64,000 bases of DNA from Asanoa ishikariensis (GTDB lineage: Bacteria; Actinomycetota; Actinomycetes; Mycobacteriales; Micromonosporaceae), in assembly GCF_900107455.1 (NCBI RefSeq), contig NZ_FNQB01000002.1, forward strand, positions 62,001 to 126,000, written 5' to 3'. Position 1 is the first letter of the stretch; the number at the start of each line of letters is the position of its first letter. The notes beneath the pieces are model-generated. The model was not told where the DNA came from, did not search any database, and was given only the letters and a program-made list of their open reading frames with translations. A program made the position numbers and the translations under genes. This document shows positions 47,765 through 60,263 of the stretch, in pieces.

Positions 47765-48937
47765 TCAGTGGTCGGTCGAGCCCAGGCGGGGCACCAGGCC
47801 CCAGCTGCTGCCGGCCGCGGCGGGCACCTCGAGCAGCTTGCGCGTGCCGTCGGTCTGGCAACGGACCACCCCGTCGTCGTACGACGCGACGACCGTGCGG
47901 TTGTCGATCCAGATCGGCGCGCGTACGCCGGCCGCCGCGCACACCTTCACCGTCGGAGTGCCGATCAGGGCGTTGTCGACGTTGAGCAGGCGCAACTGGT
48001 CACCAGCCGGCTCGGCCAGCCAGCCACCGTCGGGGGAGAGGTTGTTCGTGATGCCCTCGCCGGGCGACTCGAATCCGCAGAGCTCGGTCATGGTTACCGA
48101 CATGCCCGGACTGCCGGGGCGCAGCGAGGCCAGGCAGAGCTGCTTCTCGCCGGCCGTCCAGGCCAACCCGACGGCGGCGTCGCTGCGGGTGCCGAGGACG
48201 CCGGACACGGCCGGGTTCCAGGCGGGGTCGGCCCAACCTGACTGGTTGACGACGCTCACGAACTCGTAGCCCCGGCCGCTGGACACCTTGCCCGTGGCCA
48301 GCACCCGGTCGCCGAGCAGGGCGGTCGGCGCGGTGTCGGCCGGCACGTTGACGACGCCGAGGCGTGTGGTGCCCTCGCGGGTCAGGTCGGCCATGGTCAA
48401 CTGGTTGTCGGTCACGACGGCGATGCGCTGACCGTCGTCGCCGACAGTCCAGCGGCTGCCCTCCGGAGCGATCTCCACCGACCGCCCGTCGACGGGCTGG
48501 AGGTAGACGCCTCCGCTCGCGTTGCCGTAGAGCCAGCCGGCCGGCACCCGGTAGACGCTTTCGACGTCGCCGTGGGCGCCCAGGTCGAGGCGGCGGCCGT
48601 CGGTGGTCCACAGCAGGTCGCCGATCCGCAGGTCGAGGCCGAGACTGGCGACGTCGTGCGGGTTGATCGACGCCGTCACCAGAGGCTCGGGCAGCGCGGT
48701 GGGGTCGGCCGAGAGGACCGAGGGGTCATAGCCGGTGCGCGTCGTACGCAGCAGTTGCCAGCCGAGCGCGCCACCGAGCAGCAGCGCGAACGCCAGGACC
48801 GCCGCGAGCGAGGTGCCCACGCGGCGCCACCGCCGGCCGCGACCGGTGCGGCGGATGATCTGGTCGGCGCGGTCGGTGCCGGCCGGCGTCAGCTCGACCC
48901 GGTCCTGGAAGGCTTCGCGCAATCTTTCTTCGAGCAT
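47765..48937 (-). CDS. Membrane-anchored beta-propeller-like protein, partner of the SigE-family sigma factor
   Basis: The protein has 390 aa. Residues 1-40 are cytosolic (LEERLREAFQDRVELTPAGT, basic RRTGRGRRWRRV), followed by one membrane helix (SLAAVLAFALLLGGALGWQL) and about 320 extracellular residues in repeated beta-strands (GDLLWTTDGRRLDLG, GWLYGNASGGVYLQP). Two pairs of Cys lie in the last third. The gene overlaps the sigma-factor gene (TGATG), so it may act as an anti-sigma or sensor, although no zinc-binding anti-sigma motif is present. Function is inferred from context. Confidence 0.65.
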   Translation of the reverse strand: MLEERLREAFQDRVELTPAGTDRADQIIRRTGRGRRWRRVGTSLAAVLAFALLLGGALGWQLLRTTRTGYDPSVLSADPTALPEPLVTASINPHDVASLGLDLRIGDLLWTTDGRRLDLGAHGDVESVYRVPAGWLYGNASGGVYLQPVDGRSVEIAPEGSRWTVGDDGQRIAVVTDNQLTMADLTREGTTRLGVVNVPADTAPTALLGDRVLATGKVSSGRGYEFVSVVNQSGWADPAWNPAVSGVLGTRSDAAVGLAWTAGEKQLCLASLRPGSPGMSVTMTELCGFESPGEGITNNLSPDGGWLAEPAGDQLRLLNVDNALIGTPTVKVCAAAGVRAPIWIDNRTVVASYDDGVVRCQTDGTRKLLEVPAAAGSSWGLVPRLGSTDH

Positions 48938-49578
48938 CAGCGCCCCTCAACTCCTCCCGCCGGCGCGGGAATGCGGGGGGCGGGGGCACGCACCGGGCGC
49001 GGTGGCGCCGGTGCCTGCCGGGGGATCGGGGGCGGCCCGGACTGGGCCGCGGCCAGCTCGTCGACCCGGGCCTGCTCCGCGGCGCGTTCGGCACCGAGCC
49101 GGCCGCGCAGGGTGCTCAGGGCCCGGGACGTCTGGCTCTTCACCGTGCCGGTGGAGATGTCGAGGATGGCGGCGGTCTGCGCCTCGGACATGTCCTCGTA
49201 GAAGCGCAGCACCAGCACCGCTCGCTGGCGGGCGGGCAGCGCCTGCACGTGCCGCCACAGCGCGTCCCGTTCGAGCTGTTCGTCGACCCGGTCGGCTACG
49301 GCCCGCTCGGGCAGCACCTCGGTCGGGCGTTCGCCGTGCCAACGCCGGCGCCACCAACTGATCGACGTGTTGACCAGGACCCGGCGGGCGTACGGCTCGA
49401 CGGCTTCGATCTCACCGAGGCGCCGCCAGGCCAGATAGATCTTGGTGAGGGCCGTCTGCAGCAGGTCCTCGGCGGTGGCCCAGTCACCGGTCAGCAGGTA
49501 GGCGGTGCGCAACAGGGCCGGCGAACGGGCGGCGACGAACTCCCGGAAGTCGTCTTCGACCGACTGCCTGTCCGTCAC
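48937..49578 (-). CDS. SigE-family ECF sigma factor
   Basis: The protein has 213 aa. Region 2 is DDFREFVAARSPALLRTAYLLTGDWATAEDLLQTALTKIY in two parts, and region 4 is LPARQRAVLVLRFYEDMSEA with TAAILDISTGTVKSQTSRAL. The FREFVAARSPALLRTAYLLTGD opening is typical of the Streptomyces-type SigE family. The C-terminal 50 residues are Pro/Ala-rich and extra to the sigma fold. GGGAGG lies 8-9 nt upstream of the start. The downstream membrane protein gene overlaps by 1 nt. Confidence 0.9.
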   Translation of the reverse strand: MTDRQSVEDDFREFVAARSPALLRTAYLLTGDWATAEDLLQTALTKIYLAWRRLGEIEAVEPYARRVLVNTSISWWRRRWHGERPTEVLPERAVADRVDEQLERDALWRHVQALPARQRAVLVLRFYEDMSEAQTAAILDISTGTVKSQTSRALSTLRGRLGAERAAEQARVDELAAAQSGPPPIPRQAPAPPRPVRAPAPRIPAPAGGVEGR

Positions 49579-49685
49579 CGGACGCCCTCCCTCGGGTACG
49601 CGTGGGTGCAGACTTACACACGCGCATGGGTGGGGTCTACGGGGCGAACGGTCGCCGAGTAACGACTAATCGGCAACCGTCGTTA

Positions 49686-49847
49686 GGCCCTGTTTCGTAT
49701 CTGAGGCCGGGCTGCGGCGGGCCCAGGTGTCGTCTGGCCGCACGGCACCTTCACCCGGATACAACACCGGTATCCGGGCAAAGCCGCCGCACACCCAGAC
49801 GACACCTGGACTCCGCCTCGCCTCGACCCCAGATACGAAACAGGGCC
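49686..49847. mobile_element. Palindromic MITE-like element A
   Basis: 162 nt with perfect 18-bp terminal inverted repeats (GGCCCTGTTTCGTATCTG at 49686; its complement at 49830-49847), TA on both sides (49684-49685 and 49848-49849), and a second perfect 15-bp inverted pair (49723-49737 and 49795-49809). A central hairpin CCCGGATAC-AACACCG-GTATCCGGG lies at 49754-49778. No open frame is present. The core GATACAACACCGGTATCCG is identical to element B (59306-59469). A TA target duplication is known for IS630/Tc1-like and some IS5-family elements. Confidence 0.7.
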
Positions 49848-50707
49848 TATGCGCCGTCGTCGGCGCGGGCCTCGTCGGAGTCCTTGCCGAGCCGGGCTTC
49901 GACCGCCTGCGGCTCGTACATCTCCTCGACGACGCGGAGGTAGAGCTCGTTGGGGTTCGGCAGGTGCTTGATCTCGCGCAGTGCCTGCTCCTGGCCCGCG
50001 GACTCGAGCACGAACGTGCCGTAGTTGAGCGCGCGGCCCAATGGCGACTGTTCGTATTTCATGTCGGTCACCCGCAGCAGCGGCATCATCGCGACCCGGC
50101 GGGTGATGATCCCGCTGACCACCATGACCCGCTTGTTGGTCAGGATGAACCGGTCGAAATACCAGTCGCCGACCTTCCAGGCGACCCACCCGAAAATCGC
50201 CACCCAGACCAGGATGGCGGCGGTGGTCATGCCGGCGGCCTCCTGCCGGAACAGGAAGCCCGACAGGTAACCGAGCACGAAGGTGGCCACGATGATCACC
50301 AAGAGCGGCGTGCTCAGGTGGATCCAGTGCCGCTTCCACTCGCCCCGGTAGCGCTCCGTCGGGAAGAGGTAGCGCGAGACCAGCGGGGTCGGCTCGTCTT
50401 CGAGCGGGAGCACCCGGCGCGGGCCCAGCGGCAGGCCGGACGCGTCGACCTGGAGCCCGGCCAACTCCTCTTCGGAGATCTCGGTCGCGGTGTAGCCGCC
50501 GGCCGTGCGCTGCCGGGCCGTGGTCTCACCGTGCGCGTAGTCGGCCGAGTCGCCGAACCCAGCGCCCTGGGCGTAGCCCGCGCTGGGTGAGTAGGCGGGG
50601 CCGTCGCTGTAGCCCGGGCCCTCGTCGACCGGGGGCACGTCATCGCGCGCCCAACGGTCGCGATCGGACTCGTCAGGGTCTGGAGAAGGTGCGGACGGTC
50701 GGCCCAT
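49847..50707 (-). CDS. PH-domain (bPH2) membrane protein
   Basis: The protein has 286 aa. Residues 1-75 are low-complexity (Asp/Tyr/Gly-rich). A linker leads to two membrane helices (LLVIIVATFVLGYLSGFLF, AAILVWVAIFGWVAW), then the PH-like domain of YdbS/DUF304 proteins (WYFDRFILTNKRVMVVSGII, RRVAMMPLLRVTDMKYEQS). The stop TAG is formed by the TA bordering element A plus its first G, so the native stop may lie at the insertion site. Function is unknown; related proteins are envelope components. Confidence 0.75.
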   Translation of the reverse strand: MGRPSAPSPDPDESDRDRWARDDVPPVDEGPGYSDGPAYSPSAGYAQGAGFGDSADYAHGETTARQRTAGGYTATEISEEELAGLQVDASGLPLGPRRVLPLEDEPTPLVSRYLFPTERYRGEWKRHWIHLSTPLLVIIVATFVLGYLSGFLFRQEAAGMTTAAILVWVAIFGWVAWKVGDWYFDRFILTNKRVMVVSGIITRRVAMMPLLRVTDMKYEQSPLGRALNYGTFVLESAGQEQALREIKHLPNPNELYLRVVEEMYEPQAVEARLGKDSDEARADDGA

Positions 50708-58414: not shown

Positions 58415-59177
58415 CGACGCCCGGCCGGTCGTCGATCTGGCCGGCACGTCGATGTCGGCACTCGCCCTCGCCATACCGGCTGTCGCGGAACGCACCGGCC
58501 GCGACGTCACCGTCGTGGGTGGGCTCGCCGTAGTCTGCCGGCTGAGTCGGCCGTATCGAGCGACCACCGACCTGGACACCGTGCACCGGCGGCGCGACGA
58601 CGAGCCCGCACAGCTCGAGCTGCTGCTGGCCAGTGGTGCGTCGCGCAGCGGTCCGGCCGGAGTCCTGGTGCCGACCGCGGTCGGGCAGGTCCAGGTGGAC
58701 ATTCTGGAGGTAACGGACGCCGACCTCGCTCGGCTGCCGGAAGACCCCACCGATCGTCTGCACGTGCTGTCGCACGCGTGGGCAGCGGCCAGCGCCACGC
58801 TGGTGACGATCCGTGCGGTCGGCGTTCCTGACCTGGCAGTGGGCGTTGCGGAACCAGGACCGCTCGTCGCCATGAAGCTTCAGCCAGTGATGAACCGCGG
58901 CCGAGCGAAGGAGGCCACGGACCTTCTCGACATCATCCGGCTCTGTCTCGACCCGGTTGCCGGGCCGACGGTGCTCACTCAGTTGGCGAACAGCGAGCCG
59001 CAGCTTCGGGAGGATGCCGGTCGCCATGCCGGTCGATGGTTCGACCATCAGGCGGGGAGATCATTGCGGGTCGTACGCGCCGTGCCAGAAGGGCAGGGAA
59101 TCGAGTTGGACGACCTGCACCTCGTGGGTGAGTTGCTGCACAGCGTGTTGCCTGTTGGTGGAGCTGAGGGGATTTGA
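58404..59177 (+). CDS. AbiEii-like nucleotidyltransferase toxin
   Basis: The protein has 257 aa from a GTG overlapping the AbiEi-like stop. The nucleotidyltransferase motif is VTVVGGLAVVCRLSRPYRAT with TDLDTVHRR (Gly39-Gly40, Asp56, Asp58), and the downstream MKLQPVMNRGRAKEATDLLD carries the conserved Lys residues of DUF1814/AbiEii. AbiEii toxins (MenT family) modify tRNA 3' ends. The last six codons and the stop are formed by the 3' half of the tRNA-Ala gene on the other strand, so the original C-terminus may have been replaced. Confidence 0.8.
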   Translation: MSGSDARPVVDLAGTSMSALALAIPAVAERTGRDVTVVGGLAVVCRLSRPYRATTDLDTVHRRRDDEPAQLELLLASGASRSGPAGVLVPTAVGQVQVDILEVTDADLARLPEDPTDRLHVLSHAWAAASATLVTIRAVGVPDLAVGVAEPGPLVAMKLQPVMNRGRAKEATDLLDIIRLCLDPVAGPTVLTQLANSEPQLREDAGRHAGRWFDHQAGRSLRVVRAVPEGQGIELDDLHLVGELLHSVLPVGGAEGI

Positions 59178-59232
59178 ACCCCTGACCCCCTCGATGCGAA
59201 CGAGGTGCGCTACCGGTCTGCGCCACAGCCCC
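59156..59232 (-). tRNA. tRNA-Ala (CGC)
   Basis: The acceptor pairs GGGGCTG with CAGCTCC and includes the G3-U70 identity pair. The anticodon loop TTCGCAT gives CGC, the T arm is GGGGTTCAAATCCCC, and CCA is encoded (59158-59156). The neighbouring AbiEii-like frame reads 22 nt into its 3' end on the other strand. Confidence 0.93.
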
Positions 59233-59305
59233 GCCGCCAAACTTGCGTCTGGCGAACCGGCGATAAGGCTAACAGGTTGGCCCTCCGGACAGCGAACCAG
59301 GGTTA

Positions 59306-59469
59306 GGGGGTGTCTCGTGGATCAGGGCGGCACTCCGCCGGGCCCAGACGACGACCGACCGCACGCGAAGAGCGGCCAGATACAACACCGGTATCCGACC
59401 ACTCTCCGCGCACGCCCGGACGCCGCCTGGACCTCGCCGCAGCACCACCCTGATCCACGAGACACCCCC
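59306..59469. mobile_element. Palindromic MITE-like element B
   Basis: 164 nt with perfect 22-bp terminal inverted repeats (59306-59327 and 59448-59469; left begins GGGGGTGTCTCGTGG), TA borders at 59304-59305 and 59470-59471, and the core GATACAACACCGGTATCCG at 59379-59397, identical to element A. The end motif GGnnnTGTyTCGT is shared with A although the terminal arms otherwise differ. No open frame is present. Confidence 0.7.
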
Positions 59470-60263
59470 TAAGCCGTGTTGCTGCGCCGCGCCTCGTAAG
59501 GGCGGCCTCGCAACCCGCCCGCCCTGCGGTAGGAGACCGAGCCTGTCGCGGCCGGGGGTAGGTCGGCCGGGCGGTCCAGGCCCATGGCGGCTCGGCGGAC
59601 GGCCTCGCGCTGGGCGGCCAGCCGCCGCTGCTGCTCCCGGCGGAGCTCCGCCCGCCGGGCCTGCTCGGCCCGGACCTCGGCCTGGCGGGCGGCCAGCCAC
59701 GCCGCCCGGCGGGCCTGGTGCCGGCGGCGGGCCCGGTCGGCCAGTGCCCGGCTGCGCAGGTGAGCGAGATAGATGAAGAGCAGGGTGCCGGTCACCGCGA
59801 CGCCGACCCAGAAGCCCGGGCCGACCAGGAAGACGCCGACGAGCTCGACCAGGTTGAGCAGGATCAGGGCGGCCAGGACCCGGCGGCGGCGGTAGATCGC
59901 GGTCGCGTGCCGGCGGGCGGCCGGGCGCTGGCGGCGGGACGGGCGCGCCATGACGCCCGGCGGCACCGCGCGTAGGCGGGGCGAACGACGGCCGGCCGGC
60001 GGCGCGGAGACTGGTGGCGCCGAGACCGGGGGAGCAAAGACCGGCACTTCTGGGCGCAGCGGAGGGACCACCGCGCGGCTGCCGCGGATCGGGCGGCGGC
60101 CGGGCACGGTGCGACGCCGGCGGCGGCGGGACAACACGCGCGCCGTCGACAGTGCCCTCTCCGCGACCAATCGCTCGGTGGCGTCGTACCGGCGCACGAG
60201 GGCCGGTGCCAGAGCGAGCAGCCCGGCGGCGGCGAGGACAGCGAGGAGCACCGAGGTCGGCAC
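59469..60263 (-). CDS. glpR: GlpR, membrane receptor of the gephyrin-like protein Glp
   Basis: The protein has 264 aa from the GTG at 60263, with GGGAGG 7 nt upstream. The N-terminal helix (TSVLLAVLAAAGLLALAPAL), a basic Arg-rich linker, two adjacent helices (VLAALILLNLVELVGVFLVG, FWVGVAVTGTLLFIYLAHL) and a long coiled, Arg/Ala-rich tail (AERALSTA earlier; ARQAEVRAEQARRAELRREQ) fit actinobacterial GlpR. In corynebacteria GlpR recruits the gephyrin-like Glp to the septum. Here glp lies two genes away. The stop TAG is at the border of element B. Confidence 0.78.
   Translation of the reverse strand: MPTSVLLAVLAAAGLLALAPALVRRYDATERLVAERALSTARVLSRRRRRRTVPGRRPIRGSRAVVPPLRPEVPVFAPPVSAPPVSAPPAGRRSPRLRAVPPGVMARPSRRQRPAARRHATAIYRRRRVLAALILLNLVELVGVFLVGPGFWVGVAVTGTLLFIYLAHLRSRALADRARRRHQARRAAWLAARQAEVRAEQARRAELRREQQRRLAAQREAVRRAAMGLDRPADLPPAATGSVSYRRAGGLRGRPYEARRSNTA

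Follow-up and report, generated by a model that had tools for sequence, protein, structure and literature searches.

The locus examined here lies in a window of 64,000 nucleotides from Asanoa ishikariensis (contig NZ_FNQB01000002.1, positions 62,001 to 126,000), to which window coordinates refer throughout. Two genes on the minus strand, one encoding a SigE-family sigma factor (48937-49578) and one encoding a PH-domain protein (PF03703; 49847-50707), flank a palindrome referred to below as element A, with the start of the sigma factor gene on one side and the stop of the PH-domain gene adjoining the other. Element A consists of 162 nt (49686-49847) between TA borders at 49684-49685 and 49848-49849, and so occupies 49684-49849 with both TAs included. 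Its ends (49684-49703 and 49830-49849) form perfect 20-nt inverted repeats, or 18 nt without the TAs: by inverted-repeat comparison, the left terminal repeat GGCCCTGTTTCGTATCTG (49686-49703, plus strand) is matched perfectly by the right (49830-49847, minus strand). Further in, the 15-bp arms of an inner stem (49723-49737, plus, and 49795-49809, minus) pair perfectly, as do the 9 bp of a central hairpin (CCCGGATAC at 49754-49762 and GTATCCGGG at 49770-49778). The apical stem and loop make up a 19-nt core, CGGATACCGGTGTTGTATC (49758-49776, minus strand), the most conserved stretch of the family described below. The original prediction, made from the letters of the window, had described exactly this set of nested perfect repeats (18-bp terminal, 15-bp inner and 9-bp central) with TA on both sides, and the coordinates confirm it in full. 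The palindrome is genuine and well outside chance expectation, with a DNA fold of -66.4 kcal/mol as compared with -29.4 ± 3.0 for shuffled sequences (z = -12.2; none of 200 shuffles folded as well).

The PH-domain gene ends in a TAG stop codon whose first two bases are the right-hand TA and whose third is the adjoining base of element A, as had been predicted. According to the flank alignment, a stop is also present at this place in five relatives that lack the element (TAG in three, TAA in one and TGA in one). The further claim that the element holds no reading frame stands insofar as no listed ORF is confined within it, but mechanical ORFs of 113, 218 and 287 aa span it. A second element, B (59304-59471; TA + 164 nt + TA, with ends GGGGGTGTCTCGTGGATCAGGG), has the same core as A but different ends, and its well-folding strand is the window's minus strand (L016), as it is for A. 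The 19-nt core common to the two is GATACAACACCGGTATCCG, bearing out the prediction that they share it. About 70 nt separate element B from the end of a tRNA gene (59159-59232, minus; Rfam RF00005, 64.2 bits).

Related genomes indicate that both elements are insertions. In aligned flanks, element A is absent from all five other Asanoa genomes, with a lone TA at the empty site in four and CA in the fifth (G004), while element B is missing from four of the five, all with a lone TA. The original prediction had proposed looking for such single-TA empty sites, reasoning that copies found at the same loci everywhere would point to a fixed element rather than a mobile one; since empty sites exist for both A and B, this is not the pattern found. 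That the palindrome is a fixed structural or termination element would suit a very stable hairpin near gene ends, but as a sole reading it is ruled out by the empty sites, and with the patchy copy number and insertion-sequence ends described below it is barely credible. At the site orthologous to that of element B, the fifth genome (G001; L221, C1 at about 2984210) carries a shortened element of about 75-90 nt with the same end type, which is either an ancient common insertion, lost precisely from the other genomes, or one of two insertions at one TA. Given its short length, perfect 18-nt terminal repeats, lack of a confined ORF, TA duplication and empty sites, element A is almost certainly a copy of a MITE, belonging to a family of Micromonosporaceae 162-166 nt in length. 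The predicted reading as a TA-targeting MITE is thus supported by the empty sites; what it missed is that a single hairpin, maintained on one strand, takes up the whole length, and that copies in Asanoa are oriented along replication.

A search of the same genome and its relatives with the 19-nt core, also proposed in the original prediction, revealed many copies, patchily distributed among soil actinobacteria of the family Micromonosporaceae; the copy numbers given here are lower bounds. The A. ishikariensis genome (9.09 Mb, 11 contigs) has 20 exact or one-mismatch cores, and the six Asanoa genomes have 20, 13, 22, 12, 8 and 23, compared with none for a reversed control pattern. Across the order, the exact core occurs in 27 of 397 genomes, all within Micromonosporaceae, at up to 33 per genome and often at zero within the same genus. 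A scan of named genomes places it in at least Micromonospora, Asanoa, Longispora, Rugosimonospora, Plantactinospora, Virgisporangium, Paractinoplanes, Catenuloplanes and Winogradskya. Six core matches in other groups (L080, L100, L112, L123, L132, L137) come without the element and are regarded as chance, and the plasmid and phage records searched gave no match. Element extraction, which passed over six cores near a locus end, gave 158 elements; 14 duplicates and 8 elements with a core-strand fold weaker than -85 kcal/mol were removed, leaving 136, which still include two chance core matches from Glycomyces, L112 and L132. The favoured target site is CTAG, seen in 28 of the 59 elements with TA at both ends. 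CTAA outnumbers TTAG (10 vs 2, p = 0.04), and C at -1 (47/61) is more frequent than G at +1 (34/61, p = 0.02), a target asymmetry that is suggestive only.

Nineteen full-length copies from A. ishikariensis were aligned, and in this alignment the core region (columns 75-92) is nearly invariant. Shortened copies of 60 and 117 nt are also present in this genome (L014, G000:C4:651883-651942; L023, G000:C7:104263-104322; L005, G000:C2:1920937-1921053), and the spacing of end matches shows such copies of 60-117 nt, with ends kept and hairpin tip lost, in all six genomes of the genus. At L013 (G000:C5:248417-249088), A-type halves lie about 560 nt apart with other sequence between them, as in a decayed or interrupted copy, while at L048 (G003:C21:108164-108329) the model score puts the core in one direction and the remainder of the element in the other, as would follow from an inversion of the hairpin tip. 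Several contigs of G004 (C1, C10, C68, C118, C128, C142 and C172; L298-L303) end inside element copies, as a hairpin or repeat that blocks assembly would lead one to expect.

For a possible transposase partner, IS5-family elements of 922-1027 bp were collected from the genus by PF13340 (DUF4096) searches and inverted-repeat finding; a PF13359 search led nowhere. One of these insertion sequences, L170 (930 bp, two ORFs, PF13340 and PF01609, NF033580 IS5 family), has ends that equal both ends of the family member L155 at 20 of 20 bases, and that match the A. ishikariensis copy L008, and others, at 19 of 20. Likewise, the end type AGAGACTGTCGGG... of Micromonosporaceae KJ-029 (G210) has 15 of 16 bases in common with a 1026-bp PF13340 element from that genome. 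For the exact ends of A or B, no oppositely facing pair at insertion-sequence distance was present among the matches listed for the genus, and PF13340 had no match in Micromonospora genome G156, which has 11 exact cores. The full-length transposase with the same ends envisaged in the original prediction was therefore found for some family members, in the form of L170, but not for A's exact ends among the matches listed. The link to IS5 is thus demonstrated for some end types and inferred for A. Judged by sequence comparison, the family has terminal repeats like those of IS5-family insertion sequences of the NF033580 type, but its interior does not derive from them: when 7 insertion sequences were compared with the 136 elements by BLAST, the sequence shared in the 40 best matches listed is 20-31 nt long, lies at the ends and stops near the terminal repeat. 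An origin by internal deletion from an IS5 element was rejected on this ground.

The minus strand of element A folds over nearly its full length, and the two strands differ in how well they fold. With RNA parameters, the minus strand of element A folds at -149.6 kcal/mol and the plus strand at -117.1, with 9 and 0 G.U pairs, respectively. In the 19 A. ishikariensis copies, fold energies lie between -117.5 and -177.9 kcal/mol for the core-sense strand, which has 8-14 G.U pairs, and between -95.2 and -144.1 for the other strand, which has 0-4. The core-sense strand is the better fold in 132 of the 136 elements, a comparison that carries mild selection because of the eight weak core-strand folds dropped. 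DNA and RNA parameter sets favour the same strand, so fold energies cannot separate RNA from DNA. The consensus of the 19 copies has 69 pairs, 40 of them with double compensatory changes; 98.0% of 1308 cells in the alignment are paired, and 191 cells carry double changes. None of 500 shuffles reached any of five measures of this hairpin, and slid controls were far off.

The mismatches likewise point to one strand. When the arms were aligned with all mismatches treated alike, the inner arms of 55 Asanoa elements, read on the core-sense strand, contained 509 G.T/G.U mismatches as against 21 A.C. The corresponding ratios were 33:6 in Longispora (6 elements) and 121:20 in other genera (17 elements), with a weaker strand signature of 240:132 in Micromonospora (56 elements). 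The outer 20 bp in Asanoa are nearly pure Watson-Crick, with 22 G.T and 4 A.C in 1049 cells. On a tree of 62 elements (those of the 136 at least 75% identical to an A. ishikariensis copy), changes from Watson-Crick to G.U outnumbered those to A.C by 34:5 on inner internal branches, 38:17 at inner tips and 19:1 at outer tips. In unpaired columns, the corresponding directions numbered 28 (C>T plus A>G) and 37 (T>C plus G>A), and the contrast between stem and unpaired columns was strong over all branches and regions (Fisher p 1.3e-6). A rougher and less reliable alignment and tree of all 136 elements gave a smaller skew (159:49 inner and 55:32 outer). Transversions were suppressed in the inner stem (34:7 vs 28:61, p = 5e-8).

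An excess of G.T could in principle come from a strand-specific mutation bias, such as deamination of an exposed strand, that accumulates in elements that happen to be co-oriented, as the replication orientation described below would permit. The unpaired columns lean in the opposite direction, however, and the suppressed transversions in the stem also speak against it. Strand-specific deamination is refuted for the whole stem unless the unpaired columns were misassigned, and we consider this explanation very improbable. Selection on the one-strand fold, on the other hand, is highly probable. The ends show another pattern. At the tips of the tree, symmetric double changes exceeded single-arm changes in the outer 20 bp (55:29), unlike in the inner stem (24:81; p = 4e-9), which indicates that the ends turn over in concert, either by exchange of transposase ends or by template switching. 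Template switching during replication (quasi-palindrome correction) copies one arm to the other, would give compensatory changes without selection, and has been proposed to fix the hairpin stems of RNAs (PMC8794818). It yields Watson-Crick pairs rather than the long-lived one-strand G.T of the inner arms and leaves the replication orientation unexplained, and the outer double changes may instead represent swaps between transposase end types. As the general account of the family it is improbable, but it may well operate beside the main explanation, acting on the ends.

The copies also have a preferred direction on the chromosome. The dnaA gene was located in all 13 genomes considered, and GC skew, although weak and noisy, was roughly in step with it, weakly supporting the placement of origin and terminus. 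In Asanoa genome G005 (7.96 Mb, dnaA at 2.07 Mb), copies are on the plus strand left of dnaA and on the minus strand right of it. Among the matches listed, 23 of 25 run along replication if the terminus is placed at the arithmetic antipode of dnaA (6.06 Mb); the exceptions lie at 6.075 and 6.117 Mb, and all 25 would conform with a terminus between 6.12 and 6.37 Mb. Replication is also followed, among the matches listed, by 12 of 15 copies in G001 (dnaA at 2.44 Mb), where two of the three exceptions lie within 1 kb of each other, and by 9 of 11 on contig C2 of A. ishikariensis. Together, 44-46 of 51 copies in the three genomes follow replication (p = 2.3e-9 for 46/51), or 44 of 49 when the two copies near the antipode are left out (p = 7.6e-9). 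Of the eight multi-copy contigs without dnaA (C3 and C4 of A. ishikariensis; C15, C28, C29 and C31 of G002; C10 and C21 of G003), seven have copies in one orientation by best model score among the matches listed. The insertion sites in G001 and G005 are independent, since the flanks of the 40 copies there show no relationship beyond two weak matches (64-67%) and a single pair of copies that lie next to each other. Deletion derivatives are oriented as full copies in four of five cases, one of which is also counted among the 51. It is thus very probable that copies in Asanoa are oriented by replication. Micromonospora shows no overall replication orientation among the matches listed (4/10 in G237 and 2/2 in G379; 6/12).

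Two simpler sources of this orientation were rejected. It is not inherited from the IS5 transposase itself, as IS5 transposase matches in G005, used as a control, are co-directional with the fork in only 8 of 13 cases. Nor is it set by host genes: with respect to neighbouring genes, 46 copies are sense and 38 antisense of 112 classified (21 and 20 in Asanoa; 22:25 in G005 and 14:14 in G001), although these counts rest on home-made coding scores whose details do not agree. A crude coding score places 16 of 25 copies in G005 (L368-L392) and 3 of 15 in G001 between convergent genes.

These gene counts bear on the possibility that the hairpin works as RNA. The family would then be an ordinary IS5-dependent MITE, read through by host transcription, whose core-sense RNA folds and makes insertions tolerable through termination, RNase III processing or mRNA stability, roles that others have suggested for NEMIS and ERIC. 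G.U pairs are a classic mark of RNA, and the position of 16 of the 25 G005 copies between convergent genes would fit. According to Delihas (2007), the transcripts of bacterial MITEs take the shape of long stem loops, and ERIC, in one of its orientations, acts on mRNA. This explains the G.U pairs but not the orientation, which is biased with respect to replication and unbiased with respect to genes. No Rfam 15 family reached its gathering cut-off except for the tRNA in the window, and the best match below threshold was VA RNA at 30.2 bits (cut-off 62). We regard an RNA role as unlikely, though by no means negligible.

The reading we favour, with a probability of about 0.5, is that the elements are MITEs in which the hairpin functions at the replication fork, in the form of single-stranded DNA. 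The replication orientation in Asanoa is left unexplained if the family is taken as an ordinary MITE with two near-identical ends. Because the terminal repeats are nearly identical, a transposase cannot tell the ends apart, and the orientation must be sensed through the interior. The geometry of the strands suggests that the folding strand in Asanoa would be the leading-strand template, identical to the nascent lagging strand, and that the lagging-strand template would carry the A.C version, which folds worse. The elements would be moved in trans by IS5-type transposases, for which the outer 20 bp, nearly free of G.T, may serve as a double-stranded site at the base of the hairpin, and the hairpin would act while the folding strand is single-stranded at the fork. 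In one version of this model the folded strand would enter new sites at the fork; in another, a copy would be excised or deleted, and so lost, if its folding strand lay on the lagging-strand template. The common orientation of four of the five deletion derivatives leaves the loss version unsupported and mildly favours entry.

Several observations weigh against the single-stranded DNA reading. In Micromonospora the strand signature is weaker and the copies are not oriented by replication, and the less reliable alignment of 136 elements shows a smaller skew. RNA folding would give the same G.U signature. The position of the folding strand, on the leading-strand template, is the reverse of what the IS200/IS605 rule predicts. 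Finally, no insertion sequence with A or B ends was present among the matches listed, and G156, despite its 11 exact cores, lacks a PF13340 match. A more specific proposal is that a DDE (IS5-type) transposase moves or sorts these elements in the form of a folded single strand. In that case the hairpin base would form one double-stranded transposase site, a single cleavage would free the whole element, and the fork would supply the single strand and fix its orientation. We consider this version improbable.

We found no report of the element in the open-access literature searched, nor of the combination of IS5-type ends, one-strand hairpin and replication orientation. MITEs of this kind are known; the novelty lies in a single hairpin that takes up the entire element, is maintained on one strand and, in Asanoa, is oriented by replication. 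Since near-identical ends rule out ordinary end recognition, the replication orientation and the one-strand fold point to a stage at which this DDE-type MITE is single-stranded. Within the family, many natural variants join the same conserved hairpin core to different IS5-type ends, so that how MITEs change transposase becomes testable. If the hairpin instead works as RNA, this would be a large uncatalogued family of mobile structured RNAs.

In comparison with known systems, the family is closest at its ends to IS5 (NF033580 / PF13340) insertion sequences and their MITEs, with which it shares terminal repeats (at 20/20 and 19/20 bases with L170), the TA/CTAG target and ends of about 20 bp. Unlike the insertion sequences, its members are 162-166 nt long, lack a transposase and have an unrelated interior, with many end types on one conserved core. 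In size (100-200 bp), TA ends and transcripts that would form long stem loops, it resembles the bacterial MITEs ERIC, RUP and Correia/NEMIS as presented in the part of Delihas (2007) available to us, but the ends and hosts are different, and neither the one-strand G.T/G.U signature nor the replication orientation appears in that part of the description. REPINs with their RAYT transposases are also non-autonomous hairpin units with compensatory changes and proposed single-stranded DNA intermediates (Bertels and Rainey, 2011; PMC3116915); they are pairs of short conserved 16-mers served by tyrosine transposases, in contrast to the TA duplication and IS5-type terminal repeats seen here. One strand of integron attC sites folds and works while the other does not. 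The one-strand fold is common to these sites and to the present family, which differs from them in its TA target and terminal repeats. Elements of the IS200/IS605 group (IS608, ISDra2) share a strand-specific structure and orientation along replication, according to a review that also cites a study of clamp-linked orientation of bacterial insertion sequences (PMC5371812). Elements of that group make no target duplication and use an HUH (tyrosine) transposase. The present family does not fit among them in view of the TA on both sides, the IS5-type ends and the position of the folding strand: the active strand of IS200/IS605 elements is described in the review as lying on the lagging-strand template, whereas the folding strand here lies on the leading-strand template, in an element with the ends of a DDE insertion sequence.
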